This document shows positions 12,288 through 42,519 of a stretch of 64,000 bases of DNA, in pieces. Numbering within the stretch: the first letter of the stretch is position 1; every line of letters starts with the position of its first letter. The DNA is from Halopelagius longus (GTDB lineage Archaea; Halobacteriota; Halobacteria; Halobacteriales; Haloferacaceae). The DNA is taken from the NCBI RefSeq assembly GCF_900100875.1, contig NZ_FNKQ01000004.1:186001-250000 (forward strand). The letters run 5' to 3'. Made by a program: the position numbers and the translations under genes. The notes below the pieces were generated by a model, which had not been told where the DNA came from, searched no databases, and saw nothing but the letters and a program-made list of their open reading frames with translations.

Positions 12288-13172
12288 TCAGACGACGACG
12301 GTGTCGTTGACGAGGCGTCCGATGTGGTCGATGTCGATGGTGACTCGGTCGCCCTCCGCGAGGGTGAACGTCTCCGGCGGGACGAGGGCGGTGCCGGTGA
12401 GTAACACGACCGTCTCGGGAAGGTCGTTGTGGCGGCCGAGGTACTCGACGAGGTTCTCGCAGGTGGTCGCCATCTCCCCCGTGGAGGTGGCGTCCTCGAA
12501 CACGACGTCGCCGTCGCGTTCGATGGTGAGAGACATCGAGAGGTCGTGGGGGTCCTCGACGGCGTCCTCGGTGGCGACGCAGGGACCGATGGCACAGCAG
12601 CGGTCGTACACCTTCGCCTGCGGGAGGTAGAGGGGGTTTTCGCCCTCGATGGACCGACTGGAGACGTCGTTGCCGACGGTGTAGCCGACCACCTCTCCGC
12701 GGTGGAGGACGACGCCCAGTTCCGGTTCCGGCACGTCCCACTCGGAGTCGCCGCGGATTCCGATGGAGTCGTTCGGACCGACCGTCCGCGACGGCGTCGC
12801 CTTCAGGAACAGTTCCGGCCGTTCGCTGTCGTAGACGTCGATGTACACTTCCGGCTTGCCGCTCTCGGCTTCGCGGGCCTGCTCGCTGATGCGGTAGGTG
12901 ACGCCCGCCGCCCACACCTCGTCTGCGACGACGGGAAGGAGCGCGTCGCCGTCCAAGTCGCCGGTTTCGAGGCGGTCGGCGTCCGGGATTCGGTCGCGTG
13001 CGATAGCGTCGATGGAACGGTCGCTGGCGTTCGCCGTGCGAGCGAGTTCGGTGAACGAGCCGAGGTCGTCCGACGCCGCCGTCAGGTCGTACGCGTCACC
13101 GCCGTCGTCGATGACGACGAGCGAATCTGAAGATGGCCTCTGCTTGCTACCAGGGAGTCGGTAATACCGCAT
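12288..13172 (-). CDS. xacE: 2-keto-3-deoxypentonate dehydratase, FAH family
   Basis: Dehydrates 2-keto-3-deoxy-xylonate/arabinonate to 2-oxoglutarate semialdehyde, the fourth step of oxidative pentose breakdown. 294 residues of the fumarylacetoacetate hydrolase fold. The core carries AAGVTYRISEQAREAESG, ERPELFLKATPSRTVGP, GDSEWDVPEPELGVVL and VGNDVSSRSIEGENPLYLPQ, with the acidic metal ligands in WDVPEPE and the following strand. These match archaeal KDX/KDA dehydratases. A TATA-like ttttaac sits about 25 bases before the ATG, so the transcript may be leaderless. It lies apart from xacA, xacD and xacF, downstream of ABC operon 2 on the same strand. Confidence 0.85.
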   Translation of the reverse strand: MRYYRLPGSKQRPSSDSLVVIDDGGDAYDLTAASDDLGSFTELARTANASDRSIDAIARDRIPDADRLETGDLDGDALLPVVADEVWAAGVTYRISEQAREAESGKPEVYIDVYDSERPELFLKATPSRTVGPNDSIGIRGDSEWDVPEPELGVVLHRGEVVGYTVGNDVSSRSIEGENPLYLPQAKVYDRCCAIGPCVATEDAVEDPHDLSMSLTIERDGDVVFEDATSTGEMATTCENLVEYLGRHNDLPETVVLLTGTALVPPETFTLAEGDRVTIDIDHIGRLVNDTVVV

Positions 13173-13397
13173 ACCCGTTCATGTACAGATATCGTTAAAA
13201 GAGTACCGAGTGCAAAACGCCGCGGAGGGGCTACGCAAGCACGAGCGTCGAGAAGACGGGACCGAGATGATACTGGCCACGGGAATCGTCGCCGCCGTCC
13301 GCGTTTCGAGCGTCGCCGCTCGGGTGACGCCGCCGATTCCCTTCGTCCGTCGGAATCCGGAATCGCTGACGGCAGCGGTGACGACCGCGGGAGCCGA

Positions 13398-14540
<1,143 letters not shown>

Positions 14541-20727: not shown

Positions 20728-20748
20728 GTGCAAGAAAGACGAGTGCGG

Positions 20749-24463: not shown

Positions 24464-24532
24464 ACGCCTCGTCGAACAGCGCAAATCTGAGATTCGCCGG
24501 CTCGACGTCGGCTTACGCCTCGTCGAACAGCG
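24464..24532 (-). repeat. Direct repeat: duplicated 3' end of xacD
   Basis: The 20-base sequence ttacgcctcgtcgaacagcg, which encodes the stop and last residues of xacD (24513-24532), occurs again identically at 24464-24483, just downstream of the gene. This matches in kind the duplicated 3' end of maeB. Confidence 0.85.
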
Positions 24533-25751
24533 TCTCGCCCTCGACCATGTGTTCCTCGACGGCGTCTAAATCGAGCGTCAGACCGAGACCGGGCGTTTCG
24601 GGTATCTCCATGCGCCCCTCCTCGATGAGGTCGTCTTCCTCCACGAGGTCCTCCCACCAGTCGAGTTGGTAGGAGTGGTACTCGACGGCAAGCGAGTTGG
24701 GGATGGCCGCGGCGACCTGTGCGGAGGCCATCGTCCCGACGGGCGAGGAGACGTTGTGCATCGCGACCGGGATGTAGTACATGTCCGCGAGGTCGGCTAT
24801 CTTCCGCGTCTCCCGCATCCCGCCGACGCGGGGGAGGTCGGGCGCGACGATGTCGACCGCTTGGGGTTCCAGAAGCGTCCGTTGCCCGAACTTCCGGTAG
24901 ACGTTCTCCCCGACGGCGATGGGCGTCGAGGTGGAGTGCGTCACGTTCGCCTGCACGTCGTGGTTCTCCGGCGGCACGGGGTCTTCGAGCCACCAGACGT
25001 CGTACGGTTCGAGGGCCTCCGCGAGGCGCTTTGCGCTCCCGCCGGTGAACGACCAGTGGCAGTCGAAGGCGACGTCCGCGCGGTCGCCGACCGCCTCGGT
25101 GACGGCTTCGACGATTTCGACCTTGTGGTCGATTTCGGGGCCGCGCAGGTGGCGGTTCGCGCGGTCCTTCTCGTGGCCCGAGGGCACGTCGAGGTCGAAC
25201 TTGATGGCGTCGTAGCCGAGTTCCTCGACGACGCGCACGCCCTCCTCGGCGCAGGCTTCGGGGTTGGCCTCGTCCTCGGTGTGGAGGTCGCAGTAGATGC
25301 GCACCTCGTCGCGGTACTTCCCGCCGACGAGTTGGTAGGCGGGCACGTCGAGGAGTTTCCCGGCCACGTCGTGTAAGGCGATTTCGATGCCCGAGATGGC
25401 GGAGATGACCTTCCCCGAGATGGAGCCCTCGCCGGACATCTTCTGCACGAGGTGTTCGTAGAGGCGGTCGATGTCGAGGGGGTTCTCGCCGACGAGGAAC
25501 GGCTTCATCCGCTCTATGATGGCGGTGTCGCCGCCGCCCCAGTAGGACTCGCCGGTGCCGACGACGCCCGCGTCGGTGTAGACGCGAACCAGAATCCACG
25601 GGTAGTTACCGTCGACCATCGTCGTCTGCACGTCCGTAATCTCGGCGTCGCGGACCCCGCCGCGGTCGTTCGTGATGTTCATCGTCTCCGCGGAGAGGTC
25701 CCGCATCGTGTACTCCGCGTTCGGGTCGCGGAGCTTCGCGTGGTCAACCAT
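24513..25751 (-). CDS. xacD: D-xylonate/L-arabinonate dehydratase, enolase superfamily
   Basis: Dehydrates pentonates to 2-keto-3-deoxypentonate, step three of the oxidative route. 412 residues of the mandelate-racemase-like enolase superfamily: an N-terminal capping domain with TGESYWGGGD, then a barrel with a Lys general base region (YDAIKFDLDVP), metal ligands Asp in AFDCHWSF, Glu in WLEDPVPPEN and Glu in VGENVYR, and a His in VAMHNVSSPVG. It closely resembles the haloarchaeal xylonate dehydratase. It lies in the same orientation as xacA and 68 bases downstream of it. A TTTCGAAA palindrome occurs in the upstream gap. Confidence 0.9.
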   Translation of the reverse strand: MVDHAKLRDPNAEYTMRDLSAETMNITNDRGGVRDAEITDVQTTMVDGNYPWILVRVYTDAGVVGTGESYWGGGDTAIIERMKPFLVGENPLDIDRLYEHLVQKMSGEGSISGKVISAISGIEIALHDVAGKLLDVPAYQLVGGKYRDEVRIYCDLHTEDEANPEACAEEGVRVVEELGYDAIKFDLDVPSGHEKDRANRHLRGPEIDHKVEIVEAVTEAVGDRADVAFDCHWSFTGGSAKRLAEALEPYDVWWLEDPVPPENHDVQANVTHSTSTPIAVGENVYRKFGQRTLLEPQAVDIVAPDLPRVGGMRETRKIADLADMYYIPVAMHNVSSPVGTMASAQVAAAIPNSLAVEYHSYQLDWWEDLVEEDDLIEEGRMEIPETPGLGLTLDLDAVEEHMVEGETLFDEA

Positions 25752-27000: not shown

Positions 27001-27020
27001 GAACTGTGATAGTGTACCCG

Positions 27021-28469
27021 ATGACGGAAACCAGACGCAACTACGTGAACGGAGAGTGGGTCGAATCGGAGACGGGCGAGACGATCGACGTCGAGAATCC
27101 GGCGGACCCGAGCGTGACAGTCGCGCGGTATCAGCAGTCGAACGAATCCGACGCGGCCGACGCCGTAGACGCCGCCGCGAGCGCCCAAGACGAGTGGGCG
27201 AACACCCCCGGCCCGGAACGCGGCCGCATCCTCCGCGAGGCGGGGACCCTCCTCGCCCAACGGAAGGAGGAACTCACCGACATGCTCGTCGCCGAGGAGG
27301 GGAAGGCCCGCCCCGAGGCGGCCGGCGAGGTGCAACGCGCCATCGACATCTTCCACTACTTCTCGACGAAGGCCGCCGACCTCGGCGGCACGGTGAAGGG
27401 CGCGAGCGGACGGGGAACGAACCTCTACACCCGGAAGGAGCCCGTCGGCGTGGCCGCCCTCATCACGCCGTGGAACTACCCCATCGCCATCCCCGCGTGG
27501 AAGCTCGCACCGGCGCTCGCGGCGGGTAACACCGTCGTCCTGAAGCCCGCGTCGCTGGCACCCGGCGTCGCACTGGAACTCGCGAAAGCGCTCGACGAGG
27601 CCGGACTCCCGGACGGCGTTCTCAACGTCGTCACCGGTCCCGGCAGCGAAGTCGGTTCCGAGTTCATCGGGAACGACGCCGTCGACGCCGTCTCCTTCAC
27701 GGGGAGCGGTCAGGTCGGCGAGATGGTGTACGACCAAGCCACCGACGCCGGCAAGCGCGCCCAGACCGAACTCGGCGGGAAGAACCCGACGGTCGTCGCC
27801 AGTTCCGCGGATCCCGCGGAGGCGGCCGAAATCGTCGCCAGCGGCGGATTCGGAACCACCGGTCAGTCTTGTACCGCCTGCTCCCGCGCCATCGTCCACG
27901 AGGACGTCAAAGACGAGTTCGTCGCCGAACTCGCGGACCGCGCCGAGTCCATCGACATCGGTCCCGGAAACGAACACGAGATGGGCCCGCAGGTCAGCGC
28001 CGGCGAACGCGACTCCACCCTCGAGTACATCGAGGTGGCCGAAAACGAAGGTGCGACGCTCGTCGCCGGCGGCGGCGTCCCCGAGGGCGACGAAGTCGAG
28101 GAAGGGCACTTCGTCGAACCGACCGTCTTCACCGACGTCGACCCCGACATGCGAATCGCCCAAGAGGAGGTGTTCGGCCCCGTCGTCGCCGTCATCGAAG
28201 TGAGCGACTTCGAGGAGGGTATCGAGGTGGCCAACGGCGTCGAGTACGGCCTCTCCGCGAGCGTCGTCACCGACGACCACACCGAGGCGAACCGCTTCCT
28301 CGAGGAGGCGGAGGCGGGCGTCGTGAAGGTCAACGAGAAGACGACCGGCCTCGAACTCCACGTCCCCTTCGGCGGGTTCAAACGCTCGTCCTCGGAGACG
28401 TGGCGCGAACAGGGCGACGCCGGACTGGAGTTCTACACCATCGAGAAGACCGTCTACGACAACTACTGA
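27021..28469 (+). CDS. xacF: 2-oxoglutarate semialdehyde dehydrogenase
   Basis: Oxidises 2-oxoglutarate semialdehyde to 2-oxoglutarate, the last step of the oxidative pentose pathway. 482 residues of the aldehyde dehydrogenase family: NAD(P) site in [18 protein letters not shown] (around residues 150-170), FTGSGQVG, the general base Glu in ELGGKNP, and the nucleophile Cys in [12 protein letters not shown] (around residue 285). The C-terminal oligomerisation part has [11 protein letters not shown] and PFGGFKRSS. It is divergent from xacA and shares its promoter region. Confidence 0.9.
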
Positions 28470-28561
28470 ATCCGACCGTTCGCCGAATCCGAACCGTCGG
28501 GCGGAACGCGAGTCGGAGCGCCGTCGCGCCGTCGCGGTTCCGCGGTCCGTCCGATGTCTCT

Positions 28562-28672
28562 CGGTAGTTGCCGTCGAACTCGGCGACGTTCGTCGCGCTG
28601 AGACCGCGCGGAGAACTCGCCGTGGGGGTCCTCGCTGACGCGACTCGCGGAAGATGAGACGCGTATCGCTCT
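28562..28672 (-). pseudogene. Remnant of an IclR regulator gene (3' end), copy 1
   Basis: This stretch aligns with the last ~105 bases of the intact IclR gene at 39292 (compare 28563-28670 with 39294-39400), with shared blocks such as gagaactcgccgtgg and tcgctgacgcgactcgcgg. Small indels break the frame. On this strand it still reads RVSEDPHGEFSA against [13 protein letters not shown] in the intact gene. No N-terminal part is present. It sits between xacF and xacK. Confidence 0.8.
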
Positions 28673-28867: not shown

Positions 28868-30019
28868 CTACGGCGTGGCGAACCGTCCGCTGCTCTCTAC
28901 GCGGCGGTTGTGGACGGCCTCGCCGGTCGTCTGGTCGAACACGTGGACCATCTCCGGCGGAATCCTGACGACGACGGTGGAGCCCTCCTCGACCGCACGC
29001 GGTTCCTCCGTGACGGCGACCAGATCGTCCTCCGTCCGGTCGTCCGAGAACGACAGGTGGACGATGTTCTCGTTACCCATCGGTTCGACGACGGTCGCGA
29101 CCATCTCGAACTCGTGGCCGGAGTCGTCGCCGACGCGCGCCCTCGGCAGCACCTCGATGTCCTCCGGACGCACGCCGACGACGGCGTCATCGACGCCCTC
29201 GGTCGCCGCGATGATGTCGTCGTCGAGTTCGTAGTTCAGGGTGTCGCCGACGAACGTCGCCCCCGATATCCGCCCGTGCAGGAAGTTCATCGAGGGCTCC
29301 CCGATGAACTCGGCGACGAACAGGTTCGACGGCTCGTGGTACAGTTCCAGCGGTTCGCCCAACTGCTGGAGTTTGCCGTCGTTCATCACGGCGATGCGGT
29401 CGCCCATCGTCATCGCCTCCGTCTGGTCGTGCGTGACGTACACCGTCGTGACGCCAAGTTGCTCCTGTAGCTGCTGGAGTTCGGTGCGCATCTGCGCCCG
29501 GAGCTTCGCGTCCAGATTCGACAGCGGCTCGTCCATCAGGAACACTTCCGGGTCCCGTACGATGGCGCGACCGAGCGCGACACGCTGCTGTTGCCCGCCG
29601 GACAACTGACCGGGCTTTCGGTCGAGCAGGTCTACGATGCCCATCATCCCCGCAACCTCTTCGACGCGCTCGGAGATATCGGCGTCCGACATCTCCGTCG
29701 ACTCCTCCAGTCCGAAGGACATGTTGCGTTCGGCCGTCAGGTGCGGGTACAACGCGTAGGACTGGAACACCATCGCGATGTCTCGATCCTGCGTCTTGAC
29801 GTCGTTCAACACCCGGTCGCCGAGTCGAATCTCGCCGTCCGTCACCGTTTCGAGGCCGGCGATCATCCGGAGCGTGGTGGACTTCCCGCATCCGGAGGGG
29901 CCGACGAGGACGAGGAACTCGCCGTCCGCGATGTCGATCGAGACGTCTTCGACCGCGACGACCTCCGACTCGCCGTCGCCGAACACCTTCGTCACGTCGT
30001 CGAGTGCCAGTCGGGACAC
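28868..30019 (-). CDS. xacK: Xylose/arabinose ABC transporter ATPase XacK
   Basis: 383 residues. Walker A GPSGCGKST (residues ~40-48), Q-loop VFQSYALYP, signature LSGGQQQR, Walker B VFLMDEP, switch THDQTEA, then a C-terminal TOBE pair (VGVRPEDIEVLP; IPPEMVHVFD). The opening LALDDVTKVFGDGESEVVAVEDVS matches the form of Haloferax XacK. It is the last gene of the xacGHIJK operon, two bases after xacJ. It shares long nucleotide-identical blocks with xacJ (for example 29475-29569). Two different ATPases in one CUT1 operon suggest a heterodimer. Confidence 0.92.
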   Translation of the reverse strand: MSRLALDDVTKVFGDGESEVVAVEDVSIDIADGEFLVLVGPSGCGKSTTLRMIAGLETVTDGEIRLGDRVLNDVKTQDRDIAMVFQSYALYPHLTAERNMSFGLEESTEMSDADISERVEEVAGMMGIVDLLDRKPGQLSGGQQQRVALGRAIVRDPEVFLMDEPLSNLDAKLRAQMRTELQQLQEQLGVTTVYVTHDQTEAMTMGDRIAVMNDGKLQQLGEPLELYHEPSNLFVAEFIGEPSMNFLHGRISGATFVGDTLNYELDDDIIAATEGVDDAVVGVRPEDIEVLPRARVGDDSGHEFEMVATVVEPMGNENIVHLSFSDDRTEDDLVAVTEEPRAVEEGSTVVVRIPPEMVHVFDQTTGEAVHNRRVESSGRFATP

Positions 30020-30729
30020 GGTCAGACCGTCACCTCCCGTTCGGATTCGAAGCGACGGTTGTGGAGCGCTTCGCCGGTCCGCGCGTCGAACACGTGGACC
30101 GTCTCGGGGTCGATACCGACGATCACTCGCATCCCCGGTTGGGGGTCGTCGGTGCCGCCGACGACGGCTTGCAAGAGGGTCTCCGTGCCCGTCTCGTCGA
30201 CGGGGTTGAGGTAGACGATGTTCTGATTGCCGTGCGGTTCGACGACAGCCACCTCCATCAGGAACTGGTGGTCGTCGAGCGTCGCCTCGGCTCCGTCGCG
30301 GGCGGGGTGGAGTTCGACGTCCTCGGGGCGGACGCCGAGCACCACTTCGGAGGCGCCGTCGACGTGCTCTCGAATCTGCTCGTCGAACGGGTACTCGATG
30401 TGCTCGCCGCGGTAGACGCCGTCGTCGTACGTTCCCTCGAGGAAGTTCATCATCGGCTCGCCGATGAAGCCGGCGACGAACCGGTTCGCCGGGGCGTGGT
30501 ACAGTTCCAGCGGTTCGCCGACCTGCTGGAGTTCGCCGTCGTTCATCACGGCGATGCGGTCGCCCATCGTCATCGCCTCCGTCTGATTGTGCGTGACGTA
30601 CACCGTCGTGACGCCGAATCGGTTCTGGAGCCGTTGGAGTTCGGTGCGCATCTGCGCCCGGAGCTTCGCGTCCAGATTCGACAGCGGCTCGTCCATCAGG
30701 AACACTTCCGGGTCCCGTACGATGGCGCG
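29475..30729 (-). repeat. 95-base identical blocks in xacK and xacJ
   Basis: Positions 29475-29569 (xacK) and 30635-30729 (xacJ) are identical base for base as I read them, though the surrounding gene parts differ. Two further identical stretches of about 50 bases cover the Walker A region and the THxQTEA-to-ribosomal-side segment. Confidence 0.8.
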
Positions 30730-31167
30730 GCCGAGGGCGACGCGCTGTTGCTGTCCGCCCGAGAGTTCGTCGGGTTTACGGTCGAGGAGGTTCGCGATAC
30801 CGAGCATCTCTCCGATCTCTTCGACGCGCTCGTCGCGCTCCTCGGCCGTGTACCCCTCCTCCTCTTCGAGGCCGAAGCGCATGTTCTGTCGGACGGTCAT
30901 GTGCGGATACAGCGCGTAGTCCTGGAACACCATCGCGATGTCCCGGTTCTGCGGGACGCGGTAGTTCATGTGGTCGCCCGCGATGTAGATGTCGCCGGAA
31001 CTTTCGGACTCCAGCCCGGCGAGACACCGAAGCGTGGTGGACTTCCCGCATCCGGAGGGGCCGACGAGGACGAGGAACTCTCCGTCCTCGATGTCGAGGC
31101 TCAGCCCGTCGACCGCCGTCGTGCTTCCGAACCGCTTCGTCAGGTTGTCGATCTCGATTTCTCCCAT
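30022..31167 (-). CDS. xacJ: Xylose/arabinose ABC transporter ATPase XacJ
   Basis: 381 residues. Walker A GPSGCGKST, Q-loop VFQDYALYP, signature LSGGQQQR, Walker B VFLMDEP, switch THNQTEA, then TOBE (LGVRPEDVELHP; IDPETVHVFD). The stretch IAGDHMNYRVPQNRDIAMVF and the EEEEGYTAEERDERV insert match Haloferax XacJ. It lies two bases after xacI and two bases before xacK, so it is translationally tight in the operon. Confidence 0.93.
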   Translation of the reverse strand: MGEIEIDNLTKRFGSTTAVDGLSLDIEDGEFLVLVGPSGCGKSTTLRCLAGLESESSGDIYIAGDHMNYRVPQNRDIAMVFQDYALYPHMTVRQNMRFGLEEEEGYTAEERDERVEEIGEMLGIANLLDRKPDELSGGQQQRVALGRAIVRDPEVFLMDEPLSNLDAKLRAQMRTELQRLQNRFGVTTVYVTHNQTEAMTMGDRIAVMNDGELQQVGEPLELYHAPANRFVAGFIGEPMMNFLEGTYDDGVYRGEHIEYPFDEQIREHVDGASEVVLGVRPEDVELHPARDGAEATLDDHQFLMEVAVVEPHGNQNIVYLNPVDETGTETLLQAVVGGTDDPQPGMRVIVGIDPETVHVFDARTGEALHNRRFESEREVTV

Positions 31168-31169
31168 GA

Positions 31170-32102
31170 TTATCCACTCTCCGTCTGCAGACCCTTAGCG
31201 AACTGTTCGGCGAAGGCGACGTAAATGATGAGCGTCGGGATGGCGGCCAGGAACGACGCCGACATCCGAATCCCGAAGTCGATACCCGACGTCGAGGCGC
31301 CGACGGCCGGGAGGATGAGCGTGACCGGTGCCTCGGGCGTGTCCGCGCCCGTGACCAGCGTGAACGCGAAGAGGAACTCGTTGTAGATCTGGGTGAACTG
31401 GTAGATGAAGACGACGCCGAACATCGGCTTCGAGATGGGCAGGACGATGCGCCGGTATATCTTCGTGATGGACGCGCCGTCGATCTTTCCCGCCTCGACG
31501 AGCGAGTTCGGGAGGCTCTGGTAGTACGACCGGAACAGTATCGTGCAGATCGGAATCCCGTAGGCGATGTGAGTGATTATCAGCGGTACGAGGTTCGCGT
31601 GGTACCCCTGCAGGAACGGGAGCGTCTGGAACAGGGGGGTGATCATCGACGCGAGCGGGAAGATGTTGTTCCAGAACCGCGACAGCGGCACCAAGACGGC
31701 TTGGTACGGCATGAAGATGCCGATGAGGAACAGCGCCAGCATCAGGATCTGGGCGCGCCAGTCGACCATCGTGAGCCCGTAGGCGGCCATGCTCCCTAAC
31801 AGGACGCTACCGAGCGTCGCCGGGATGGCCATGAAAAGCGAGTTGAAGAACGCCCCCGAGAGCCTGTCGAACGCGAACCGGAGGTTCCCGAGCGTGAATC
31901 CCTCTCCTGTCGGCGGCACGAGCGGTATCGACCGGGCGACGGCTTCGTTCGTCTTCAGCGCCGTCATCAGGCCCGTCTCCAGCGGTGCGAGGAAGAAGCC
32001 GATGAAGAGTATCACCAGCGTATACTGGGCGATTCGACCGAGGTTCCAGTCCTCGACGAACGAGGCGACGTCGATTCCGCCGTCAGAGGTTGATTGCGAC
32101 AT
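31170..32102 (-). CDS. xacI: Xylose/arabinose ABC transporter permease XacI (MalG-like)
   Basis: 310 residues, about six spans. The EAA loop is VEAGKIDGASITKIYRRIVLP around residue 210. The start ATG at 32102 gives MSQSTSDGG with a short cytosolic lead before the first span (LVILFIGFFLAPLETGL); the frame upstream overlaps xacH and is not used. It lies two bases after xacH. A fragment similar to the region 31441-31575 of this gene occurs at 39137-39261. Confidence 0.9.
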   Translation of the reverse strand: MSQSTSDGGIDVASFVEDWNLGRIAQYTLVILFIGFFLAPLETGLMTALKTNEAVARSIPLVPPTGEGFTLGNLRFAFDRLSGAFFNSLFMAIPATLGSVLLGSMAAYGLTMVDWRAQILMLALFLIGIFMPYQAVLVPLSRFWNNIFPLASMITPLFQTLPFLQGYHANLVPLIITHIAYGIPICTILFRSYYQSLPNSLVEAGKIDGASITKIYRRIVLPISKPMFGVVFIYQFTQIYNEFLFAFTLVTGADTPEAPVTLILPAVGASTSGIDFGIRMSASFLAAIPTLIIYVAFAEQFAKGLQTESG

Positions 32103-32104
32103 GT

Positions 32105-33055
32105 TCAGAGACTCCCTTGCTTGTACTGGTAGTAGAGGTACGGTGCGATGACTCCCAGCGCCAAGAGGAGCAGGTAGGTGGCGATGGCGGCCGAGTAGGC
32201 CCACTTACCGAACTTGAACGCCTGCCGAACCATCAGCGTCGCGAGGATGTCGGTGCCGTTCGGAGGGCGGTACCGGCCCGTGAGCGCGTACAGGAACGTG
32301 AACGCCTTGAGGGCGAACACCATCAGGATGACGGCGGCGCTGACCGACGACTCCTTGAGTTGCGGGATGATGATGCGAAGGTACGTCTTGACCGTGCTCG
32401 CGCCGTCGACGCGAGCAGCCTCGAACTGGTCGTCCGGGAGCGACTGGAGTCCGGCGAGGTAGACGACCATCGTGTACCCGCTGAACTGCCAGATGAGCGC
32501 GAATATCACCGACCCGAGCGCGATGGACGGGTTTCCGATCCAGTCTATCGGCTCGAAGCCGAGCGCGGTCACGATGATGTTGAGAAGCCCGTTCTGTTGG
32601 TTGAACATCCAGAGCCACATCTGCGCCGTGACGACGAACGAGAGACTCATCGGGAGCAGATAGATGGTCTGAATCTTGTCCTTGTACCGGATGCCGTGGT
32701 CCAAAAGTACCGCCAAGAACAGACCGAGAAGCAGACAGACCGTCGTGAATACGACGAGGAGCACGAAGTTGTTCTGCGCGGCCTGCCTGAAGGCGTCGCT
32801 AGCCAACGCCTGTCGATACATCTCGAAGTCCAGAGTGCTGTAATCCGGCGGAGTCAGTCCTTTCGCGTCGGTCAGGGAGATTGAGAGGTTGAACCCGATG
32901 CCGCCGTACACGGCGATTCCCATGATGAGGAACGGAATCCCCCAGTACGGCGACGACCGGACGAAGTCGCTGTTCAGGAAGTACCTGAGCTTCCTCTCCC
33001 AGCCCACCTCCTCGGACGACGACGAGGTCGTTTCGGTCGTTTCGGTCGTACCCAT
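32105..33055 (-). CDS. xacH: Xylose/arabinose ABC transporter permease XacH (MalF-like)
   Basis: 316 residues with about six spans (first: WGIPFLIMGIAVYGGIGFNL). The EAA loop is FEAARVDGASTVKTYLRIIIP near residue 220. The N-terminus has a run of Thr/Glu/Ser (TETTETTSSSSEE) before the first span. It follows the binding-protein gene xacG by 53 bases and pairs with XacI to form the channel. Confidence 0.9.
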   Translation of the reverse strand: MGTTETTETTSSSSEEVGWERKLRYFLNSDFVRSSPYWGIPFLIMGIAVYGGIGFNLSISLTDAKGLTPPDYSTLDFEMYRQALASDAFRQAAQNNFVLLVVFTTVCLLLGLFLAVLLDHGIRYKDKIQTIYLLPMSLSFVVTAQMWLWMFNQQNGLLNIIVTALGFEPIDWIGNPSIALGSVIFALIWQFSGYTMVVYLAGLQSLPDDQFEAARVDGASTVKTYLRIIIPQLKESSVSAAVILMVFALKAFTFLYALTGRYRPPNGTDILATLMVRQAFKFGKWAYSAAIATYLLLLALGVIAPYLYYQYKQGSL

Positions 33056-33108
33056 CGGTAAGAGTGTTCAGGTCCGTCGTAATAAATTGTGTTGTTAGTG
33101 TGATTACG

Positions 33109-34443
33109 CTATCCCGAGACGGCTTTGAGGAGCGCATCCGCGGCCGCGTTGACGTCGTACGGACCCATCATGTGTTCGCTCATCGCCGTCTTGCAGTTAC
33201 CCATCTGCTCCGGCGGGACTGCCAGTCCGTGCGCGATGGTCGGCGGGTACTTCTCCGAACTGGTGAGGTCCTTGTACGTCATGGCGATGAAGTCGCTCAG
33301 TTCGCTCGGGTCGATGTCGGTTCGAAGCGGAACCGAACCTTTCAGGTTGTTGAAGGCTATCTGCGCCTTCTTCGTGCCGACGAACTTCTCCCACGCGATG
33401 GTCTCCTCCTTGGAGGGGTTGTTCATCGGCGCGACGATGGAGTCGAGGTGGTAGCAGTACACGCCCTCCGTGCCCGGGAACGGAATCCACCCCCAATGCT
33501 CCTGATAGTTGAACGAATCGTTCGAGCGGAACTGCCCCGCCAGCCAGTTGCCTTGGTGCATGCAGGCGACTTCGCCGTTTATCATCTTCCCGCCCACGTC
33601 GGTGAAACTGACCGAGGAAGCGTCCGAGGTGATGTAGTTCTGCTGGATATCCTTGACCGTCTTCAGCGCTTCGACGATCTTCTGTTTGTCTCCGTTCCCC
33701 TCGATGAACTTCGTGTACGCGTCGACGCCGGACTGGCTCATGAGGACCTGCGCCCAGAGTTGGAGCACTGTCCACGGCGCCTTCATCGCCTGACCCATCG
33801 GCGTCACGTCCGTCTCCTCCTGAATCGTCTTGAGCGCCGACAGCAACGCGTCCATCGAGTCGAGGCTCTTCGGGTCGACGCCGGCGTCCTCGAACACCTT
33901 GATGTTGTAGAACAGGTTGTTCATCCGGTGGGACCCCAGCGGGACGGTGGGCATCTTGTCGTTGAAGGTGCAGAGTTCGACGGCTCGGTCCTGCATCACG
34001 TCCTTGTACCCCTCGGCCTCCCAGACGTCCTTCTCGAGGTCCATGAGGTGACCCCGATAGCGCTCTAAGTTGTTCCCCGGCCAGTTGGCGAAGGAACTCA
34101 TCGGGTTGTTGTTCACCATCCGGCGGAGGATGGTCGCGTTCAGATTGACGTTCGCGCTCGCCCCGACGGCCTGAAAGTTCGTCTCCATGTCGGGGTACTC
34201 CTCGTTGAACGCCTCGATGAGGGCGCTCACCGCGGCTTCGCCGTCGCCGCCGGACCAGCCGTGGAGCACTTCGAGCGTCTCGTTCCACTCTCCGCTGCCG
34301 CCGCCGCCGCTTCCGTTCGTCGTGCCGCCTTCTCCCCCGCCGTTCCCGCCGGCACAGCCCGCCAACCCGGCGGCGAGTCCGGTGCCGAGCGCGGCTATAT
34401 ACGTCCGTCTGTCCGTTTCGGGACCTGCGTCATGTTTAACCAT
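33109..34443 (-). CDS. xacG: Xylose/arabinose-binding lipoprotein XacG
   Basis: 444 residues. The N-terminus has RRTYIAALG followed by a hydrophobic stretch and lipobox LAGC (around residue 30), so it is a Tat-type lipoprotein anchored outside the membrane. A Gly-rich linker (GGNGGGEGG) follows. The mature part is a family-1 solute-binding fold (EVLHGWSGGDGEAAVSALIEAF, the pattern of the glucose/xylose binders). It is the first gene of xacGHIJK. A TATA-like tttaatatc lies about 30 bases before the start. Confidence 0.88.
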   Translation of the reverse strand: MVKHDAGPETDRRTYIAALGTGLAAGLAGCAGGNGGGEGGTTNGSGGGGSGEWNETLEVLHGWSGGDGEAAVSALIEAFNEEYPDMETNFQAVGASANVNLNATILRRMVNNNPMSSFANWPGNNLERYRGHLMDLEKDVWEAEGYKDVMQDRAVELCTFNDKMPTVPLGSHRMNNLFYNIKVFEDAGVDPKSLDSMDALLSALKTIQEETDVTPMGQAMKAPWTVLQLWAQVLMSQSGVDAYTKFIEGNGDKQKIVEALKTVKDIQQNYITSDASSVSFTDVGGKMINGEVACMHQGNWLAGQFRSNDSFNYQEHWGWIPFPGTEGVYCYHLDSIVAPMNNPSKEETIAWEKFVGTKKAQIAFNNLKGSVPLRTDIDPSELSDFIAMTYKDLTSSEKYPPTIAHGLAVPPEQMGNCKTAMSEHMMGPYDVNAAADALLKAVSG

Positions 34444-34592: not shown

Positions 34593-36161
34593 TCACCACG
34601 GCCGGCCGTCGTCCGCGGGCTGGACGGTCTTCACGAAGTCGAACGACCACCGCTGGTTGGCGTCGCCGGTCCAGTCGTACTGGACGACGTCGGCGCCGTC
34701 CTCCGTCGAGGCGTTCAGCACGTCCGCCACCTTTCCCGAGTTGACGTTCCGGAGTCTGTACGTGCCGTCGCCGTTCTCCACAATCTCCCACTTCTGCGAG
34801 GGACCCGTCCACCACCCCCACTGCTGGAGGCTCGCGCCGTTCGCCGTCGACCCGTCCGTCACGTCGAGCGCGCGGTTGCTGTTCTGGTTGACGATGCGGT
34901 ACTCGCCGCCGCCGACGTACTCGACCCACCAGCGCTGGCAGGCGCATCCGCTGTTCGACCACTGCCGGACGTTGTCTCCGTCGGCCGTCCCCGCGTCGGC
35001 GACCTCCAGCAGTTTCCCGCTGTTTTCGTTCGCGATTCGGTAGATGCCGTCGTCGAGGACGCCGGTGTCGTTCGCGTTCGGCTCCACCGACTGGAGGCTC
35101 GGCGTCTTGTCGCCGGCGATGAGAGGCCAGTCGTCCTCGGTCCACTCGACCCTGTCGAGGAAGAACTGCCGCGCGGGGACGTCGTCGACGTACTCCTGAT
35201 CGTTGCGGTCGTAGGCGTGGTAGACGAACCAGTCCCGGCCGTTATCGTCGGTCGCGATGTCGCCGTGACCCGGCGCGGCGAAGCGACTGTTGGCCGTGAG
35301 TTGTGCGACGCCGGCGTTGTTCGCGTCGTAGTTCAGCATGTCGGTCCCGGAGGGGTCGGTGTAGGGGCCGAAGAGACTCTGTGACCGCCCGACCTCTACT
35401 TCGTAGGTGCTGCTGTACCCGTCGCAGCACGTCCCGGTCGCGACGAACAGATACCAGTACCCGTTCCGCCGGAAGACGCAGGTCCCCTCGTACGCTTGGC
35501 CGGCAACCTGCTGGAGCGTCGACGGCTTCCAGTCCTGCAGGTCGGCGGTGAGTTCCGTCACGTAGATGCCCTGAAAACTCCCCCAGAACAGGTACGGCGT
35601 GCCGTCGTGTTCGACGAAGTAGCCGTCGATGCTACCTCCGCCCTCGTGATCGTTGTCGCCGAGTATCTGTCCGTAGTCCGTGAACGGACCGTCGGGCGTG
35701 TCCGACTTGGCGAGGCCGATGCCGAACTCGCCGCTCTCCCACGGCCGCGGCGACAGCGAGTAGAACATGACCCACTCGCCGTCGTAATAGTGGATGTCCG
35801 GCGCCCAGATGGACCCGTACGTCCACCCCGGTCGCGAATCGAACGCCTCCCCGACGTACGTCCACTCGTGGAGGTTGTCCGACCGGAGTATCGGTATCAG
35901 AAGCTCCTCGGAGTCGTTGCTCCCGTCGCTCCGGTCCATGTTCGTCCCGTACGCCCACCACGTACCGCTGTCGTCGCGATGGATGGTCGGATCCGGGAAG
36001 TGCGGCCCGTACAGTTCGTTGTGATAGTGCGTCGATCCGTCCGTCGTCGCCGAAACCGTCTCGCTGGCGCGCCCGGCCGCGGCCGTGCCTGCGATACCGG
36101 TGCCGATAACTTTCAGAACGCTGCGCCTATCGAACCGTCGCTTGCCATGACTGTCTGTCAT
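34593..36161 (-). CDS. Exported GH43 arabinanase-type glycosidase with ricin-type lectin domain
   Basis: 522 residues. A twin-arginine signal (FDRRSVLKVIGTG) marks export, with no lipobox. Residues ~35-340 form the GH43 five-bladed propeller: catalytic Asp in FPDPTI, the pKa-modulating Asp in GSIDGYF, acid Glu in YEGTCVF, and SIWAPDIHYYDG. From about residue 365 a beta-trefoil carries three repeats, each opening YRI/YRL-NxNSG and ending QRW, QKW or QRW, typical of carbohydrate-binding ricin domains (CBM13). It would attack arabinan or arabinoxylan outside the cell. In-frame starts exist at 36179 (GTG), 36170 and 36161. A TATA-like ttatgtattt at about 36183-36192 favours 36161. It is the only clearly secreted glycosidase here. 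Confidence 0.9.
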   Translation of the reverse strand: MTDSHGKRRFDRRSVLKVIGTGIAGTAAAGRASETVSATTDGSTHYHNELYGPHFPDPTIHRDDSGTWWAYGTNMDRSDGSNDSEELLIPILRSDNLHEWTYVGEAFDSRPGWTYGSIWAPDIHYYDGEWVMFYSLSPRPWESGEFGIGLAKSDTPDGPFTDYGQILGDNDHEGGGSIDGYFVEHDGTPYLFWGSFQGIYVTELTADLQDWKPSTLQQVAGQAYEGTCVFRRNGYWYLFVATGTCCDGYSSTYEVEVGRSQSLFGPYTDPSGTDMLNYDANNAGVAQLTANSRFAAPGHGDIATDDNGRDWFVYHAYDRNDQEYVDDVPARQFFLDRVEWTEDDWPLIAGDKTPSLQSVEPNANDTGVLDDGIYRIANENSGKLLEVADAGTADGDNVRQWSNSGCACQRWWVEYVGGGEYRIVNQNSNRALDVTDGSTANGASLQQWGWWTGPSQKWEIVENGDGTYRLRNVNSGKVADVLNASTEDGADVVQYDWTGDANQRWSFDFVKTVQPADDGRPW

Positions 36162-36215
36162 GCGTCCCATTACCGTCACGCCAAATACATAATGTTTTTT
36201 GAGATAGAAATGGTC

Positions 36216-36227: not shown

Positions 36228-36534
36228 CAGAAAGGAGAGCAGAGCGAATTTACAACCGTCACGCCCGCGACGGTGTCCACTTCCGGATGGTAGGTTGCCG
36301 GTCCAGTCGGCCGATGATGGCGGTGCTGTCGGCCGTCAAGAGGCCAACACGCCAGTCATCTTCCCAGAATTGATGTTCGAAATCAGATACCTCCCCGAGG
36401 CACCCCTCGCGTCCGTCGCCAGTGAGGAGAACGTCGTCCCGAAAACGCCTTCTCTCGTCGCCGACCGCGTCTTGAACCGACCGCGATTGGAGCGTCCGAA
36501 GTGTGGGGACTTTGGATCAGTCGGTGTTCCCTCT

Positions 36535-36551
36535 GTTCTCTAGTACAGAAC
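36535..36551. promoter_or_regulatory. Inverted repeat GTTCT-N7-AGAAC, copy 2
   Basis: Arms GTTCT and AGAAC are separated by 7 bases, as at 11578-11596. The promoter region of the IclR gene carries a related half-site, ttctgttctacaaaac, near 40083. Confidence 0.25.
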
Positions 36552-36652: not shown

Positions 36653-36852
36653 GTTTCGAAATAGAGAACGGATTCTTCGTGGTTGATGATGAGTGCGACG
36701 ACGCTCGTCGCACCGAGAACCTGTTCGGAGAACTCGCCGTGGAGGCCGTCGATCGCGTCGTACAGTTCCCCTCGCGAACCGATGCTCCGGGGTCGCTTCC
36801 GTTCGAGGCCGTGTCGCTTGATTACCTCCTCGACGCGCGACTCCGGGAGGTG
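36653..36852 (-). pseudogene. Remnant of an IclR regulator gene, copy 2, with internal deletion
   Basis: Compared with the intact IclR gene, 36653-36745 matches 39270-39361 (including about 20 bases of 3' untranslated sequence), then about 140 bases are missing. 36746-36852 matches about 39500-39607 (shared gtcgatcgcgtcgtacagtt and ttccgttcgaggccgtgt). The stop codon region is mutated. The remnant ends abruptly at an ABC-ATPase tail in the opposite orientation. Confidence 0.85.
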
Positions 36853-36854
36853 TC

Positions 36855-37070
36855 TTCGAACAGGTCGGCTCGTTCGACATCGTTCACCTCACTCTCGGCG
36901 AGGGCGATGAGGAGTTGCTCGCGCAAGTACCGGGATCCCGCCACTTCGACCACGGCGATACGATCGGCGTCGCTATCGACCCGGACCGGATCCACCTGTT
37001 CGACGAAACCGAAGACGCCGTGTACAACCCGCCACTCCACTCCGAACAACAGGTCAAACAGCTCAGATAG
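36855..37070 (+). pseudogene. Orphan C-terminal fragment of an ABC-transporter ATPase
   Basis: An open frame of 71 residues with no start reads FEQVGSFDIVHLTLGEGDEE, then HGDTIGVAIDPDRIHLFDE and ends at a TAG. This is the last part of a MalK/UgpC TOBE domain (compare IPPEMVHVFD and IDPETVHVFD in XacK/XacJ). No Walker motifs remain. It is plus-strand, directly upstream of GH127, and abuts the IclR remnant. Confidence 0.85.
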
Positions 37071-37188
37071 CCCCCTGTACCATTAATAAGAGGTGGCCGA
37101 CAATACCGTTCGCACTGGCGCGAACCGCACCGCTCGGCCGGCGACACCGGATCGATCTATCGAATCAACGACAGCTCACTGAAACAGA

Positions 37189-39114
37189 ATGAGCGAACAC
37201 GAGCAGACAACAGACGAGATCAAGCTATCGGACGTCGAAATCGATGACGGGTTCTGGTCTCCCTGGGTGACCCGGAACCGCGACGTGACGATCGAATATC
37301 AGTACGAACAGCTCGAAGAATCGGGGACGCTGGAGAACTTCCGCCGCGCCCGCGACGGGAAAGAAGGCGGCTTCCAGGGGATGTGGTTCCAGGATAGCGA
37401 CGCCTACAAGTGGCTCGAAGCGGCGAGTTACGAGCTCGCGAAGACCGACGATCCTGCTCTTCGAGAGCGGGTCGACGAAGTGATCGAGCTAGTTGCCGCT
37501 GCACAGGAGGACACCGGCTACATCAACACGTACTTCCAGCTCGTCGAGCCGGAGATGAAGTGGACGAACCTCAACATCATGCACGAGCTGTACTGTGCCG
37601 GTCATCTGATCGAGGCCGCAGTCGCTCACTACGAGGCCACCGGCGAGGAGTCACTGCTCGACGTGGCCATCAACTTCGCTGACCACGTGGACGACGTCTT
37701 CGGTGACCGGATCGACGGCGTTCCCGGACACGAAGGGATCGAGCTCGCACTCGTCAGGCTCTATCGGGTTACGGACGACGAGCGCTATCTCGACCTTGCA
37801 CAGTACTTCGTCGACCTCCGAGGCCACGACGACCGTCTCGAATGGGAACTCGAACACTCCGACGAAATCGGTGGCCACTCGTGGGACGACGGCGCACTCA
37901 TTCCTGCTGCGGGCGGGGGAAGTCTGTTCCTCGACGAGGACGGCGAGTACGTCGGCACGTACGCGCAGGCCCACGCTCCTGTCCGGGAACAGGAGACAGT
38001 CGAGGGACACTCGGTGCGAGCGATGTATCTCTTCGCGGGGGTCACTGACCTCGTGGCGGAGACGGACGATGAGGAGTTGTTCGAGGCGATGAAACGCCTC
38101 TGGGAGAATATGACGACGAAGCGGATGTACGTGACCGGGGGCATCGGCCCCGAACGCGAGCACGAGGGCTTCACCGAGGACTACGACCTCAGGAACGAGG
38201 ATGCCTACGCCGAGACGTGTGCGGCCATCGGGAGCATCTTTTGGAACCAGCGACTGCTCGAACTCACGGGCGAGGCGAAGTACGCGGACGTGATCGAGCG
38301 GACACTGTACAACGGGTTCCTCGCCGGCGTCTCGCTGGACGGTACGCGGTTCTTCTACGAGAACCCCCTGGAGAGTTCGGGTGACCACCATCGCAAGGGG
38401 TGGTTCACCTGCGCCTGTTGTCCGCCGAACGCCGCGCGCCTGTTCGCGTCGCTCGGACAGTACGTCTACTCGAACGTCGACGGGTCGCTCACTGTCAACC
38501 AGTACGTCGGCAGCACAGTGACGACGACCGTCGACGGGACCGAGGTCGAACTCACCCAGTCGAGCTCGCTGCCTTGGTCCGGTGAGGTCACACTCACTGT
38601 CGACGCTGACGGGCCGGTCCCGGTCCGCCTTCGGATCCCCGAGTGGACGACCGACGCGTCCGTCTTGATCGACGGAGAGGAAGTCGACCAGAGCGGCGAG
38701 GAGTACGTCGAACTCGACGGTGAGTGGGGCGGCGACCGGATCGAGATCCGCTTCGAACGGGAAACCGAACTAGTCCGTGCTCATCCCGCGGTCGAGAGCG
38801 ATGCGGGCCGAGTCGCCGTCGAACGGGGCCCGCTCGTCTACTGCGCCGAAGCAGTCGACAACGATCGACCACTCCATCAATACGCACTCGCTTCAGACGG
38901 CGCTATCGACGCGGAGCACCGCAACGACCTGCTCGATGGAGTGACCATCCTCGAAGCCGATGCGAAGGTGCCGGCGTTGGACGGATGGGAAGGGACGCTG
39001 TACCGCCGCGACGACGAGACGGACACCGAGTCCGCACAGCTCACGATGGTCCCCTACTATCTGTGGGACAACCGAGAACCCGGCGAGATGCAGGTGTGGA
39101 CCCGCGTCGAGTAG
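37189..39114 (+). CDS. Beta-L-arabinofuranosidase, GH127
   Basis: 641 residues of the GH127 (former DUF1680) family, which removes beta-linked L-arabinofuranose. An (alpha/alpha)6 barrel is followed by beta-sandwich domains. Key residues: Glu and Cys in AETCAAIGSIFWNQRL (around residue 343), and the Cys pair in FTCACCPPNAARL (around residue 407). In characterised members these bind zinc and provide the Cys nucleophile. No signal peptide, so it is cytosolic. Its codons carry visibly more A/T at third positions than the neighbours (for example gatcgagctagttgccgctgcaca), suggesting transfer. It is flanked left by an ABC-ATPase tail and right by a permease fragment. Confidence 0.93.
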   Translation: MSEHEQTTDEIKLSDVEIDDGFWSPWVTRNRDVTIEYQYEQLEESGTLENFRRARDGKEGGFQGMWFQDSDAYKWLEAASYELAKTDDPALRERVDEVIELVAAAQEDTGYINTYFQLVEPEMKWTNLNIMHELYCAGHLIEAAVAHYEATGEESLLDVAINFADHVDDVFGDRIDGVPGHEGIELALVRLYRVTDDERYLDLAQYFVDLRGHDDRLEWELEHSDEIGGHSWDDGALIPAAGGGSLFLDEDGEYVGTYAQAHAPVREQETVEGHSVRAMYLFAGVTDLVAETDDEELFEAMKRLWENMTTKRMYVTGGIGPEREHEGFTEDYDLRNEDAYAETCAAIGSIFWNQRLLELTGEAKYADVIERTLYNGFLAGVSLDGTRFFYENPLESSGDHHRKGWFTCACCPPNAARLFASLGQYVYSNVDGSLTVNQYVGSTVTTTVDGTEVELTQSSSLPWSGEVTLTVDADGPVPVRLRIPEWTTDASVLIDGEEVDQSGEEYVELDGEWGGDRIEIRFERETELVRAHPAVESDAGRVAVERGPLVYCAEAVDNDRPLHQYALASDGAIDAEHRNDLLDGVTILEADAKVPALDGWEGTLYRRDDETDTESAQLTMVPYYLWDNREPGEMQVWTRVE

Positions 39115-39136
39115 CGATCTCGGCGAGGTCAGAGTG

Positions 39137-39261
39137 AGGACGATGCGCCGGCACATCTTCGTGAGAGACGCGCCGTCTATCTCTCCCGCTCGACGAGCGA
39201 GGTCGGGATGCTCTAGTACTACTGTCAGAGTACGTGCAGACCGGAACCCCGTCGGCAATGA
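39137..39261 (-). pseudogene. Fragment of an XacI-like permease gene
   Basis: It aligns with 31441-31575 of xacI, including aggacgatgcgccgg and the EAA-loop codons. On this strand it still reads IDGASLTKMCRRIVL against IDGASITKIYRRIVL in XacI. Indels and an in-frame stop destroy it. It begins 22 bases after the GH127 stop and ends just before the 3' region of the IclR gene. Confidence 0.85.
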
Positions 39262-39291
39262 GGGTGCGGTTTCGAAATCGAGAACGGATAC

Positions 39292-40047
39292 TCAGTAGTT
39301 GATGTTGAGTTCGACGACGTTCGCCGCGCTGAGAACCTGTTCGGAGAACTCGCCGTGGAGATGGTCGTCGCTGACGCGACTCGCGGGGGCGGAGACGCTT
39401 ATCGCGCCCAACACCTTGTCGGAGGAGGTTTTGACGGGCGCAGCGACGCAGCGCAACCCTTCGAGACGCTCCCCGTCGTCGATGGCGTAGCCGCGTTCGC
39501 GGATGTCGTCGATCGCGTCGTACAGTTCCTCGCGAGTGCCGATGCTCCGCGGCGTCTTCCGTTCGAGGCCGTGTTGCTCGATTATCTCCTCGACGCGGGA
39601 CTCCGGCAGGTGCGCGAGGATGGCCTTTCCCAGCGCCGTGGTGTGGAGGTGAGTGCGCAGTCCGGCGTAGGTGTCTAAGTCCACGGCTTGATCGCCCTTC
39701 GAGCGCATCAGGTAGACGCCCATCCCCTGCTCTTCGACCAGCAGATTGGCGAGTTCGCCCGTCTTGGCGGCGATGGACTTCACCTCCGGTTCCGCGACTT
39801 GGTAGAACTCCATCGATTTCCGGATGTTGCCGCCGAGTTCGAGGAACTTCAACCCGAGTCGGTAGTCGTCGTCGTCCTTCAACACGTACTGGTGCTTCCG
39901 GAGCGTCGAGAGGTGACTGTGCACCGCGCTCTTCCCCATGTCGAGGCTGTCCGCCAACTCGGTCACACCGCAGGGACCACGTTCGGCCAACTCGTTTATG
40001 AGGGCGAGGGTCTTCTCGGTGGTCTTCACCGGGTGCTTGGCGTCCAT
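39292..40047 (-). CDS. IclR-family transcriptional regulator (candidate XacR)
   Basis: 251 residues. An N-terminal winged helix ([41 protein letters not shown] pattern, residues ~8-55) is followed by the IclR effector domain (about 75-250) with [25 protein letters not shown] and RCVAAPV. Such regulators sense sugar-related ligands. Its place among pentose genes, and truncated copies of it beside xacK and GH127, make it a candidate for the xac regulator XacR, but the sequence does not prove that. A TATA-like aaaagttaatg lies upstream near 40075. Confidence 0.9.
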
Positions 40048-40494
40048 GATTAATCAATAATATCACTCCATTCTCATTAACTTTTCTGTTCTACAAAACG
40101 GACGCTGGGCGTACCGGTGGACTGTTCGCCGTGAGGGAACCACCTGTGACCCGACGCGGTGTGCGACGCCCTGCTATCCCTCCTCGGACGAGAGGGAGTG
40201 GCGGGGGCGTCTTCACTTGTCGCGGTGGAGTCGTCGGATATCTCTCTCGCCGGAGACAACTCGAAGCCAACGCAGGCGATAGTGCCGCTTTCTGGATATA
40301 TGTTTTTGTACTTCGATGCCTCTCACAGGAATCGGTCGAACGCTCGGATCCGTGTGGTCGCTTCGCGGCGCGGCGCTTCGGTGCGAACGGGTCGGGCGGT
40401 GCCGTGGTTCGTCGCAGTTACTGCCCTCGTCCGGCCGTCTTCCTCCTCAAAATATGTGAGGGATTTACTACCCTCGCCCGGCTTTGGGAGTTCG
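40048..40494. other. Non-coding stretch between IclR and GH42
   Basis: The GH42 reading frame stays open back to 40159, but the extra residues are not typical of the family and Arg/Ser-rich. It holds the IclR promoter (around 40048-40085) and AT-rich elements at 40447-40470 that suit the GH42 start. Confidence 0.5.
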
Positions 40495-42519
40495 ATGAAC
40501 ACGGGAGTCTGTTACTTTCCCGAGCACTGGGACCGCGAGCAGTGGGAAGCTGATATCGAGCGGATGGCGGAATCGGGGATCGAGTACGTCCGCATGGCCG
40601 AGTTCTCCTGGAACCGGATGGAGCCCGAACCGGGGGTGTACGAGTTCGAGTGGTTAGAGGAGGCCGTAAACCTCGTCGGCGACTCCGGGATGAAAGCGGT
40701 ACTCTGTACGCCCACGGCGACGCCGCCGAAGTGGCTTCTCGACGAGTACCCGAGTATCCGCCAAGAAGGGCGGGATGGTACGCCCCGCGAGTTCGGTAGC
40801 CGTCGGCACTACTGCTTTAACTCGCCGGTGTACCGGAGGGAGAGTCGTCGGATCATAGAGAAGATGGCGGCTCGCTTCGCGGACGACGAGTACGTCGCCG
40901 GTTGGCAGACAGACAACGAGTTCGGCTGTCACGATACGACGCGTTGCTACTGTGACGATTGCGCTTCGGCGTTCAGGACGTGGCTCCGGGAGAAGTACGA
41001 CTCCGTCGACGCCCTCAACGAGGCGTGGGGGAACGCGTTCTGGAGCCAAGAGTACGGGTCGTTCGCCGAGGTCGACCTCCCGGGTCCGACGCCCGCGCAG
41101 GACCAACACCACCCGTCTCGCCTGTTGGAGTACAAGCGGTTTGCGTCCGACAGTGTCGCGGAGTACAATCGGCTTCACACGGGGATTCTGCGGGAGGCGA
41201 ACTCCGAGTGGTTCGTCACTCACAACTTCATGGGCAACTTCCCCGACATCGACGCCTTCTCCGTGAGCGAGGATCTGAGCTTCGCGGCCTGGGACTGCTA
41301 TCCGACGCTCTTCAGCCAGCAGATACCGGATGCGCCGGACCCCGCCTCGGAGGAGGGAGCCACGTTCCAGCGGGTCGGGGACCCGGATATGATCGGTATG
41401 AACCACGCACTCTACCGCGGCGCGAGCGACGGGCCATTCTGGGTGATGGAGAGCCAGTCCGGCGACATCCGTGCGTATCCGTATTCGGCGGAACCCGCCG
41501 ACGGGATGGTCCGACTCTGGTCCCACCAAGCGGTCGCTCACGGCTGTGACGTCGTCTCGTACTTTCGCTGGCGACGATGCCGCTTCGGACAGGAGCAGTA
41601 CTGGGGCGGACTGAACAACTACGACGGTTCACCGGACCGGGGCCTCGCGGAGGCGACGGAAGCCGCCGAGGACTTCGCGGAACTCCCGAATCTCGATGCG
41701 CCGTCCGGGGACGTGGCGATGCTCGTAGATTACGATAGCCTCTGGGCGCTCGAAACCGAACCCCACACGCCCGAATTCCACTACTTCGCGCACCTTCGAG
41801 CGTACTACCGAGCGTTTCGCTCCCGGGGCGTGACCGTGGACCTCGTGCCGGCGAGCAGGGACGTGAGCGAGTACGCGGCGGTCGTCGCACCGTCGCTGCA
41901 CCTCGTCGATCAGGAACTCTCCGAGCGGTTGGCCGAGTACGTTTCCGACGGCGGCGAACTGCTTTTGACGATCCGAACCGCGATGAAGGACGAGTACCAC
42001 AAACTCCGAGACGAACTCGCACCCGGTCCGCTAGCGGAGCCTCTGGGCGCGCGCGTCGGGCAACACGAGAGTCTCGCACCCGGCCTGGAGAAACGGGTCA
42101 GGTACGACGGTGAGACCTACGAGTACAGGACGTGGGCGGAGTGGCTCACCGCGGACGAAGCGACCGTCGTCGGCCGACACGAGACCGGTGTCGCCGAAGG
42201 CGAACCGGCTATCGTCAGGAACGACTACGGTAACGGACACGCCGCGTACGCCGGCGTTTGGCCGGAAGCGGAACTCGCCGACGCGATTACGACGACTCTC
42301 CTCGAACGGGCCGACGTTCCGTTCGGCGAACGCCTCCCCGAGTTCGTTCGACTCGCCGAACGCGACGGCTACACGTGGGTCCTGAACTTCCGAGCGGAGC
42401 CTCTCGAGATTGACCCCGGAAACCGAACCCCGACGCTCGGCGGGACGACGATTCGTGGCCGCGATCTCGCCATCGTTGACGCACCGCCGCACGAGATAGA
42501 CCTCATTGAGGAAGGGTGA
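40495..42519 (+). CDS. Beta-galactosidase-type glycosidase, GH42
   Basis: 674 residues. An N-terminal barrel begins TGVCYFPEHWDREQWEAD and continues with the R-AEFSW signature. The acid/base Glu is in WQTDNEFGCHDT (about residue 147), the nucleophile Glu in WVMESQSGD (about residue 319), and zinc-binding Cys occur in the YCFNSP and CHDTTRCYCDDC segment. A trimerisation domain and a small C-terminal beta-domain follow. It hydrolyses beta-galactosides or, in some members, alpha-L-arabinopyranosides. No signal peptide. Haloarchaeal Bga belongs to this family. Start placed at the ATG where homologues begin. Confidence 0.92.
   Translation: MNTGVCYFPEHWDREQWEADIERMAESGIEYVRMAEFSWNRMEPEPGVYEFEWLEEAVNLVGDSGMKAVLCTPTATPPKWLLDEYPSIRQEGRDGTPREFGSRRHYCFNSPVYRRESRRIIEKMAARFADDEYVAGWQTDNEFGCHDTTRCYCDDCASAFRTWLREKYDSVDALNEAWGNAFWSQEYGSFAEVDLPGPTPAQDQHHPSRLLEYKRFASDSVAEYNRLHTGILREANSEWFVTHNFMGNFPDIDAFSVSEDLSFAAWDCYPTLFSQQIPDAPDPASEEGATFQRVGDPDMIGMNHALYRGASDGPFWVMESQSGDIRAYPYSAEPADGMVRLWSHQAVAHGCDVVSYFRWRRCRFGQEQYWGGLNNYDGSPDRGLAEATEAAEDFAELPNLDAPSGDVAMLVDYDSLWALETEPHTPEFHYFAHLRAYYRAFRSRGVTVDLVPASRDVSEYAAVVAPSLHLVDQELSERLAEYVSDGGELLLTIRTAMKDEYHKLRDELAPGPLAEPLGARVGQHESLAPGLEKRVRYDGETYEYRTWAEWLTADEATVVGRHETGVAEGEPAIVRNDYGNGHAAYAGVWPEAELADAITTTLLERADVPFGERLPEFVRLAERDGYTWVLNFRAEPLEIDPGNRTPTLGGTTIRGRDLAIVDAPPHEIDLIEEG

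Follow-up and report, generated by a model that had tools for sequence, protein, structure and literature searches.

The analysed stretch of DNA, here called the window, comprises 64,000 nucleotides of a 306-kb contig in a 3.87-Mb haloarchaeal genome (contig C4, positions 186001–250000). It contains a pentose island that hosts a scar of gene fragments around a GH127 gene. The left part of the island encodes AbfA (20728–22257), XacD (24513–25751) and, on the plus strand, XacF (27006–28469), followed by a minus-strand relic of an XacR 3′ end (28560–28669) with 80% identity to the intact XacR over 115 columns and 74% to XacR of Halogeometricum pallidum. The intact genes K, J, I, H and G of an XacGHIJK-like ABC transporter, assigned by Pfam and NCBIfam matches, come next on the minus strand (28868–34443) and share 64–80% amino acid identity with the matching operon in the relatives G444 and G126. 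An intact gene for a GH43 arabinanase with a ricin-type lectin domain (34593–36179, minus strand; PF04616, 173 bits; PF14200, 132 bits) completes this part. Upstream of it, on the same strand, positions 36294–36410 weakly resemble a second ricin-lectin domain and may be a remnant of one (E about 3e-4 in a very small search); a Pfam search of these positions gave no match.

In the scar itself, the 3′ half of an xacR gene with its native 3′ flank (XacR′, 36653–36852, minus strand) abuts the C-terminal tail, i.e. the OB/TOBE part, of a MalK-type ABC ATPase (36852–37070, plus strand). A putative promoter (37083–37125) and the intact GH127 gene (37189–39114, 641 aa) follow on the plus strand. A stretch from the interior of an XacI-like permease gene (I′, 39137–39266) and a complete XacR (XacR′′, 39269–40047, CDS 39292–40047), both on the minus strand, then lead to a GH42 gene (40159–42519). 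This agrees with the first-pass annotation, which had listed a truncated IclR copy, a plus-strand ABC-ATPase tail, GH127, an XacI-like permease fragment and an intact IclR gene to the right, with the IclR 3′ ends as direct repeats around the insert. No integrase, transposase, replication gene or terminal repeats were found among the repeats and named genes from 36.2 to 40.2 kb, a range that includes the 2.6-kb insert.

Copies of xacR and the permease piece

XacR′′ is the only complete XacR in this island and carries both the IclR helix-turn-helix (PF09339, 39.5 bits) and the effector domain (PF01614, 134 bits). XacR′ aligns with it in the same orientation in two blocks, 36653–36751 with 39269–39367 (86% DNA identity, E about 1e-28) and 36738–36852 with 39498–39612 (85%, E about 1e-32), i.e. 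85–86% to 39269–39612 overall. Missing from the relic are 144 nt of its interior and the stop codon; it is cut at the joint to the ATPase tail and has no DNA-binding domain left. In the gene tree, XacR′ is sister to XacR′′ (94.5/94), with practically all change on the relic branch. The discordant sites of XacR′ fall mostly at bases that are fixed in relatives and are spread evenly over the three codon positions (9/8/9), as in a neutral relic. Neither sliding identity nor discordant sites nor the tree revealed a stretch of XacR′ or XacR′′ that resembles another lineage, which speaks against an IclR sequence from the donor of GH127.

The permease piece I′ matches positions 31441–31575 of the intact XacI-like gene with 82% identity and three indels (E = 4e-32); it is closer to this permease of the window than to those of G444 and G126 (76% each). 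Since XacR′ is sister to the host XacR and I′ is nearest to the host XacI, neither shows a sign of having come from the lineage of the GH127 donor, as the first-pass annotation had implied for the IclR and permease sequences. Both are copies from the host lineage.

XacR 3′ ends thus occur three times, all oriented alike, at 28560, 36653 and 39269. The one at 28560–28669 had been missed in the first-pass annotation. As 10 of 14 related loci have xacF on the plus strand followed by XacR on the minus strand (at most 0.5 kb apart in three), the relic beside xacF probably marks the original xacR site. The intact gene lies 10.7 kb away from xacF, where only the relic is found, so that it was filed as XacR by its sequence alone. 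This third relic indicates that xacR was duplicated more than once and that the region was rearranged at least twice, which means that other orders of events would also fit.

The flanks of the copies are distinguished by a palindrome, GTTCT-N7-AGAAC, which occurs seven times in the window (0.44 expected). A pair of these palindromes is found downstream of xacR, about 6 and 100–180 nt past the stop codon, in 11 of 14 related loci, and a further one lies about 31–37 nt ahead of the xacR start in relatives; all flanks tested hold 26 sites downstream, as compared to 1.3 expected. The motif is a candidate for the XacR operator. The XacR publications consulted name no binding motif. The downstream pair sits between convergent genes, a placing that a role as operator leaves without explanation. 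Two more near-perfect copies occur at 11579–11595 and 11860–11876, in a region (10.9–12.2 kb) that holds no long named genes. XacR′ retains both downstream palindromes (36653–36669 and 36535–36551) at near-native spacing, and its flank on the left is therefore native. XacR′′ retains only the first (39269–39285); the remaining native flank is replaced by I′.

The ATPase tail and GH127 as a travelling unit

The GH127 protein is covered by three domain models, PF07944 (384.6 bits) and the middle and C-terminal domains PF20736 and PF20737, all above their cut-offs, and is predicted to be a β-L-arabinofuranosidase. Its motifs YAETC (340–344) and CACCPPN (408–414) align with those of the solved GH127 structure 4QJY and presumably represent the conserved Glu/Cys zinc and nucleophile motif of the family. 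A model for aceric acid hydrolase (NF049879) was rejected, with 477 bits against a curated cut-off of 950. A search of the literature available on GH127 in haloarchaea returned nothing of use. The A/T-richer codons that had been ascribed to this gene correspond to a GC3 of 0.80, which is indeed lower than that of most neighbours (0.84–0.91); GH42 lies lower still (0.78), and GC3 is thus a weak argument for foreign origin.

The tail ahead of GH127 reads open over 72 codons (stop at 37068–37070) with 59% amino acid identity over 66 aa to residues 295–360 of a MalK-type ATPase from Halarchaeum, and it scores 22.0 bits with Pfam TOBE_2 (cut-off 21). The nucleotide-binding domain with its Walker motifs is absent; in its place stands XacR′, joined to the tail with homology of no more than about 3 nt. 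At the DNA level, the tail is 75–79% identical to the stretch that immediately precedes GH127 on two Haladaptatus plasmids (E 2e-54 for one of them), extending over 268 nt in Haladaptatus pallidirubidus (79%) and 265 nt in Haladaptatus salinisoli (75%), while about 50 nt are left in Halogeometricum pallidum. According to the alignment, one of the Haladaptatus tails is interrupted by a stop codon in frame and has lost one base, and the other has lost one base as well, i.e. these tails are decaying. A headless tail upstream of GH127 is hence common to the window and three other genomes from two families. It occurs in two genomes each of the Haloferacaceae (171 examined) and the Haladaptataceae (28 examined) and is absent from every other GH127 locus examined.

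In a tree of 44 GH127 sequences, the four with a tail form one clade (99/93), and the tail-less GH127 of G191 is sister to it, outside the clade. Together with the absence of the tail elsewhere, this is most simply read as a single loss of the ATPase head, after which the tail would have been carried along passively. The unit of tail and GH127 is accordingly older than its arrival in the window. Its spacer, with a TTAATA box at 37083 and a palindrome at 37108–37125, is likewise conserved in Halogeometricum pallidum and both Haladaptatus, an indication that a promoter travels with the unit. The palindrome, a perfect GTTCGC-N6-GCGAAC in the window, lies at the putative GH127 start site and is altered on both arms in the Haladaptatus versions (ATTCGC..GTGAAT and ATTTGC..GAAAAT). 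This motif was dismissed as a general operator, as its 12 matches in the window hardly exceed the 10.8 expected.

An intact ATPase ahead of GH127, for which the first-pass annotation had proposed to look, exists in the same genome. On contig C5, an intact 360-aa ATPase of the tail's family is encoded directly upstream of GH127, and this pair presumably shows the ancestral order. It belongs to a second arabinose locus (7942–13509), in which the ATPase is followed by two GH127 genes, with a binding protein and permeases encoded divergently. The GH127 from C5 was rejected as the direct donor, since it shares only 67% amino acid identity with that of the window and groups as sister to Halobonum in the tree.

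The age of the insertion was approached via fourfold degenerate sites. Between the window and Halogeometricum pallidum, GH127 differs at 19.3% of these sites (57/296), as compared to 35.4% (311/878) in five neighbours from the xac region, namely xacD, xacF, SDR, c22360 and XacR (p = 1e-7, or p = 0.03 if xacD is the only gene compared). GH127 and its neighbours differ equally in the Haladaptatus pair (18.1% and 17.9%, p = 0.93), so that GH127 is not intrinsically slow. The lower divergence therefore indicates that GH127 moved after the lineages of the window and of Halogeometricum pallidum had split. Taken with the shared tail and the single clade, it bears out the proposal of the first-pass annotation that ATPase tail and GH127 formed the donor unit. 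There is no support for AbfA, which lies 15 kb away, as a member of the same transfer, its fourfold difference to Haladaptatus being 0.47–0.52 as compared to 0.37 for GH127.

Assembly of the scar and known systems

We consider it probable that a unit of truncated ATPase tail, GH127 promoter and intact GH127 has spread between haloarchaeal families and was integrated here through one crossover with the xacR already in place. The ATPase head would have been lost once, ahead of this spread, so that the tail persists as a passive vestige by which the unit can be recognised. The incoming DNA, perhaps in a circular or plasmid form, would have contained, linked to the unit, a 3′ piece of a host-type xacR and a piece of xacI, and the crossover would have placed it into the xac pentose island. 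Direct target repeats surround the insert, and the left xacR is cut and keeps the native flank, while the right one is complete and has a new flank, a geometry that fits integration by a single crossover. Without positions 36653–39268, the gene order would match that of relatives. An empty site with the order GH43-XacR-GH42 did not turn up in any relative among the loci examined, and the integration step is read from this geometry. The homologous recombination at IclR put forward in the first-pass annotation is plausible and partly supported by the arrangement of the copies, but would have used xacR sequence of the host type. The joint between XacR′ and the tail is non-homologous and must predate or accompany integration. 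Further points against a single crossover are I′, which calls for an additional joining event without explanation, and the lack of an integrase, replication gene or transposase in the 2.6-kb insert.

The joint and the host origin of XacR′ and I′ would be accommodated by another course of events, which is possible yet clearly less probable. Here, xacR and xacI would have been copied within the island by unequal exchange between repeats, in line with the three equally oriented XacR 3′ ends, and the tail and GH127 would later have dropped into the decaying copy by non-homologous joining, replacing the interval between XacR′ and I′. The order XacR′-unit-I′-XacR′′ indeed echoes XacR-K-J-I. Such a course needs at least two events for the cut left and complete right copies, where one crossover suffices, and it gives no reason for the native flank being found on the left copy only. 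More doubtful is the idea that haloarchaeal pentose islands repeatedly recombine in the 3′ half of xacR. Serial integrations at this site would have taken up first the transporter-GH43 block and then the tail and GH127, and separately the tail and GH127 beside XacR of Halogeometricum pallidum, perhaps with help from the conserved palindromes behind xacR.

In the latter organism, GH127 is convergent to XacR at a distance of 460 nt and sister to the GH127 of the window, as would be expected if GH127 had stood beside xacR in a common ancestor and had later been rearranged. Such vertical inheritance is nevertheless unlikely, given that GH127 shows about half the fourfold divergence of its neighbours and passes the rate control, that the unit is absent from G248 of the same genus as the window and from other members of the genus of Halogeometricum pallidum, and that the flanking joints differ between the two loci. 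Least of all do we expect the fragments to be functional. The tail would then have been retained for a small protein or a leader with regulatory effect, and the XacR fragment would act as a small regulator. Although the tail is open and an ORF also covers the XacR relic, this would be hard to reconcile with the stop and frameshifts in the Haladaptatus tails, the mere 50 nt or so in Halogeometricum pallidum, and the evenly spread changes in XacR′ at otherwise fixed sites in a fragment without DNA-binding domain.

With single-crossover integration as the preferred reading, the locus is an ordinary gene-transfer scar that is unusually well resolved. It illustrates the piecewise assembly of haloarchaeal pentose islands, and it cautions that fragments next to sugar genes may be inherited baggage rather than local damage. 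Under its own putative promoter, GH127 probably acts on arabinan together with the resident GH43, AbfA and the xac pathway. The solved GH127 chains 4QJY and 3WKX match the window protein over the full length of its domains, including the aligned YAETC and CACCPPN motifs; unlike these, GH127 of the type found in the window is haloarchaeal and patchily distributed over families, and its activity is predicted from sequence.

XacR and the xac pentose cluster have been described in Haloferax volcanii (Johnsen et al. 2015, as cited in PMC10448506). Like that cluster, the window contains xacD, xacF, XacR and an XacGHIJK-like transporter. In most relatives xacF is convergent to XacR, whereas in the window a relic lies beside xacF and the working XacR follows only beyond the transporter, GH43 and GH127. 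The xac locus of Halogeometricum pallidum shares with the window a GH127 (90% amino acid identity) that is convergent to XacR beside xacF, as well as a short remnant of the tail, but has a single XacR, no I′ and no direct repeats around GH127. A C-terminal XacK relic (11243–11467 of that locus, 68% amino acid identity) adjoins its XacR, which suggests that an XacGHIJK-like operon was once present and then lost. The Haladaptatus plasmids NZ_CP085307 and NZ_CP085330, with the order tail-GH127-AbfA, share headless tail, promoter region and GH127 with the window in collinear order, between 36851 and about 39130 of the latter. They differ in their longer tails, one of which starts at ATPase residue 264, in AbfA directly downstream, and in the lack of IclR repeats. 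The scar is a clear example of a useless remnant that travels with an enzyme gene and thereby makes a single transfer unit traceable over two families.
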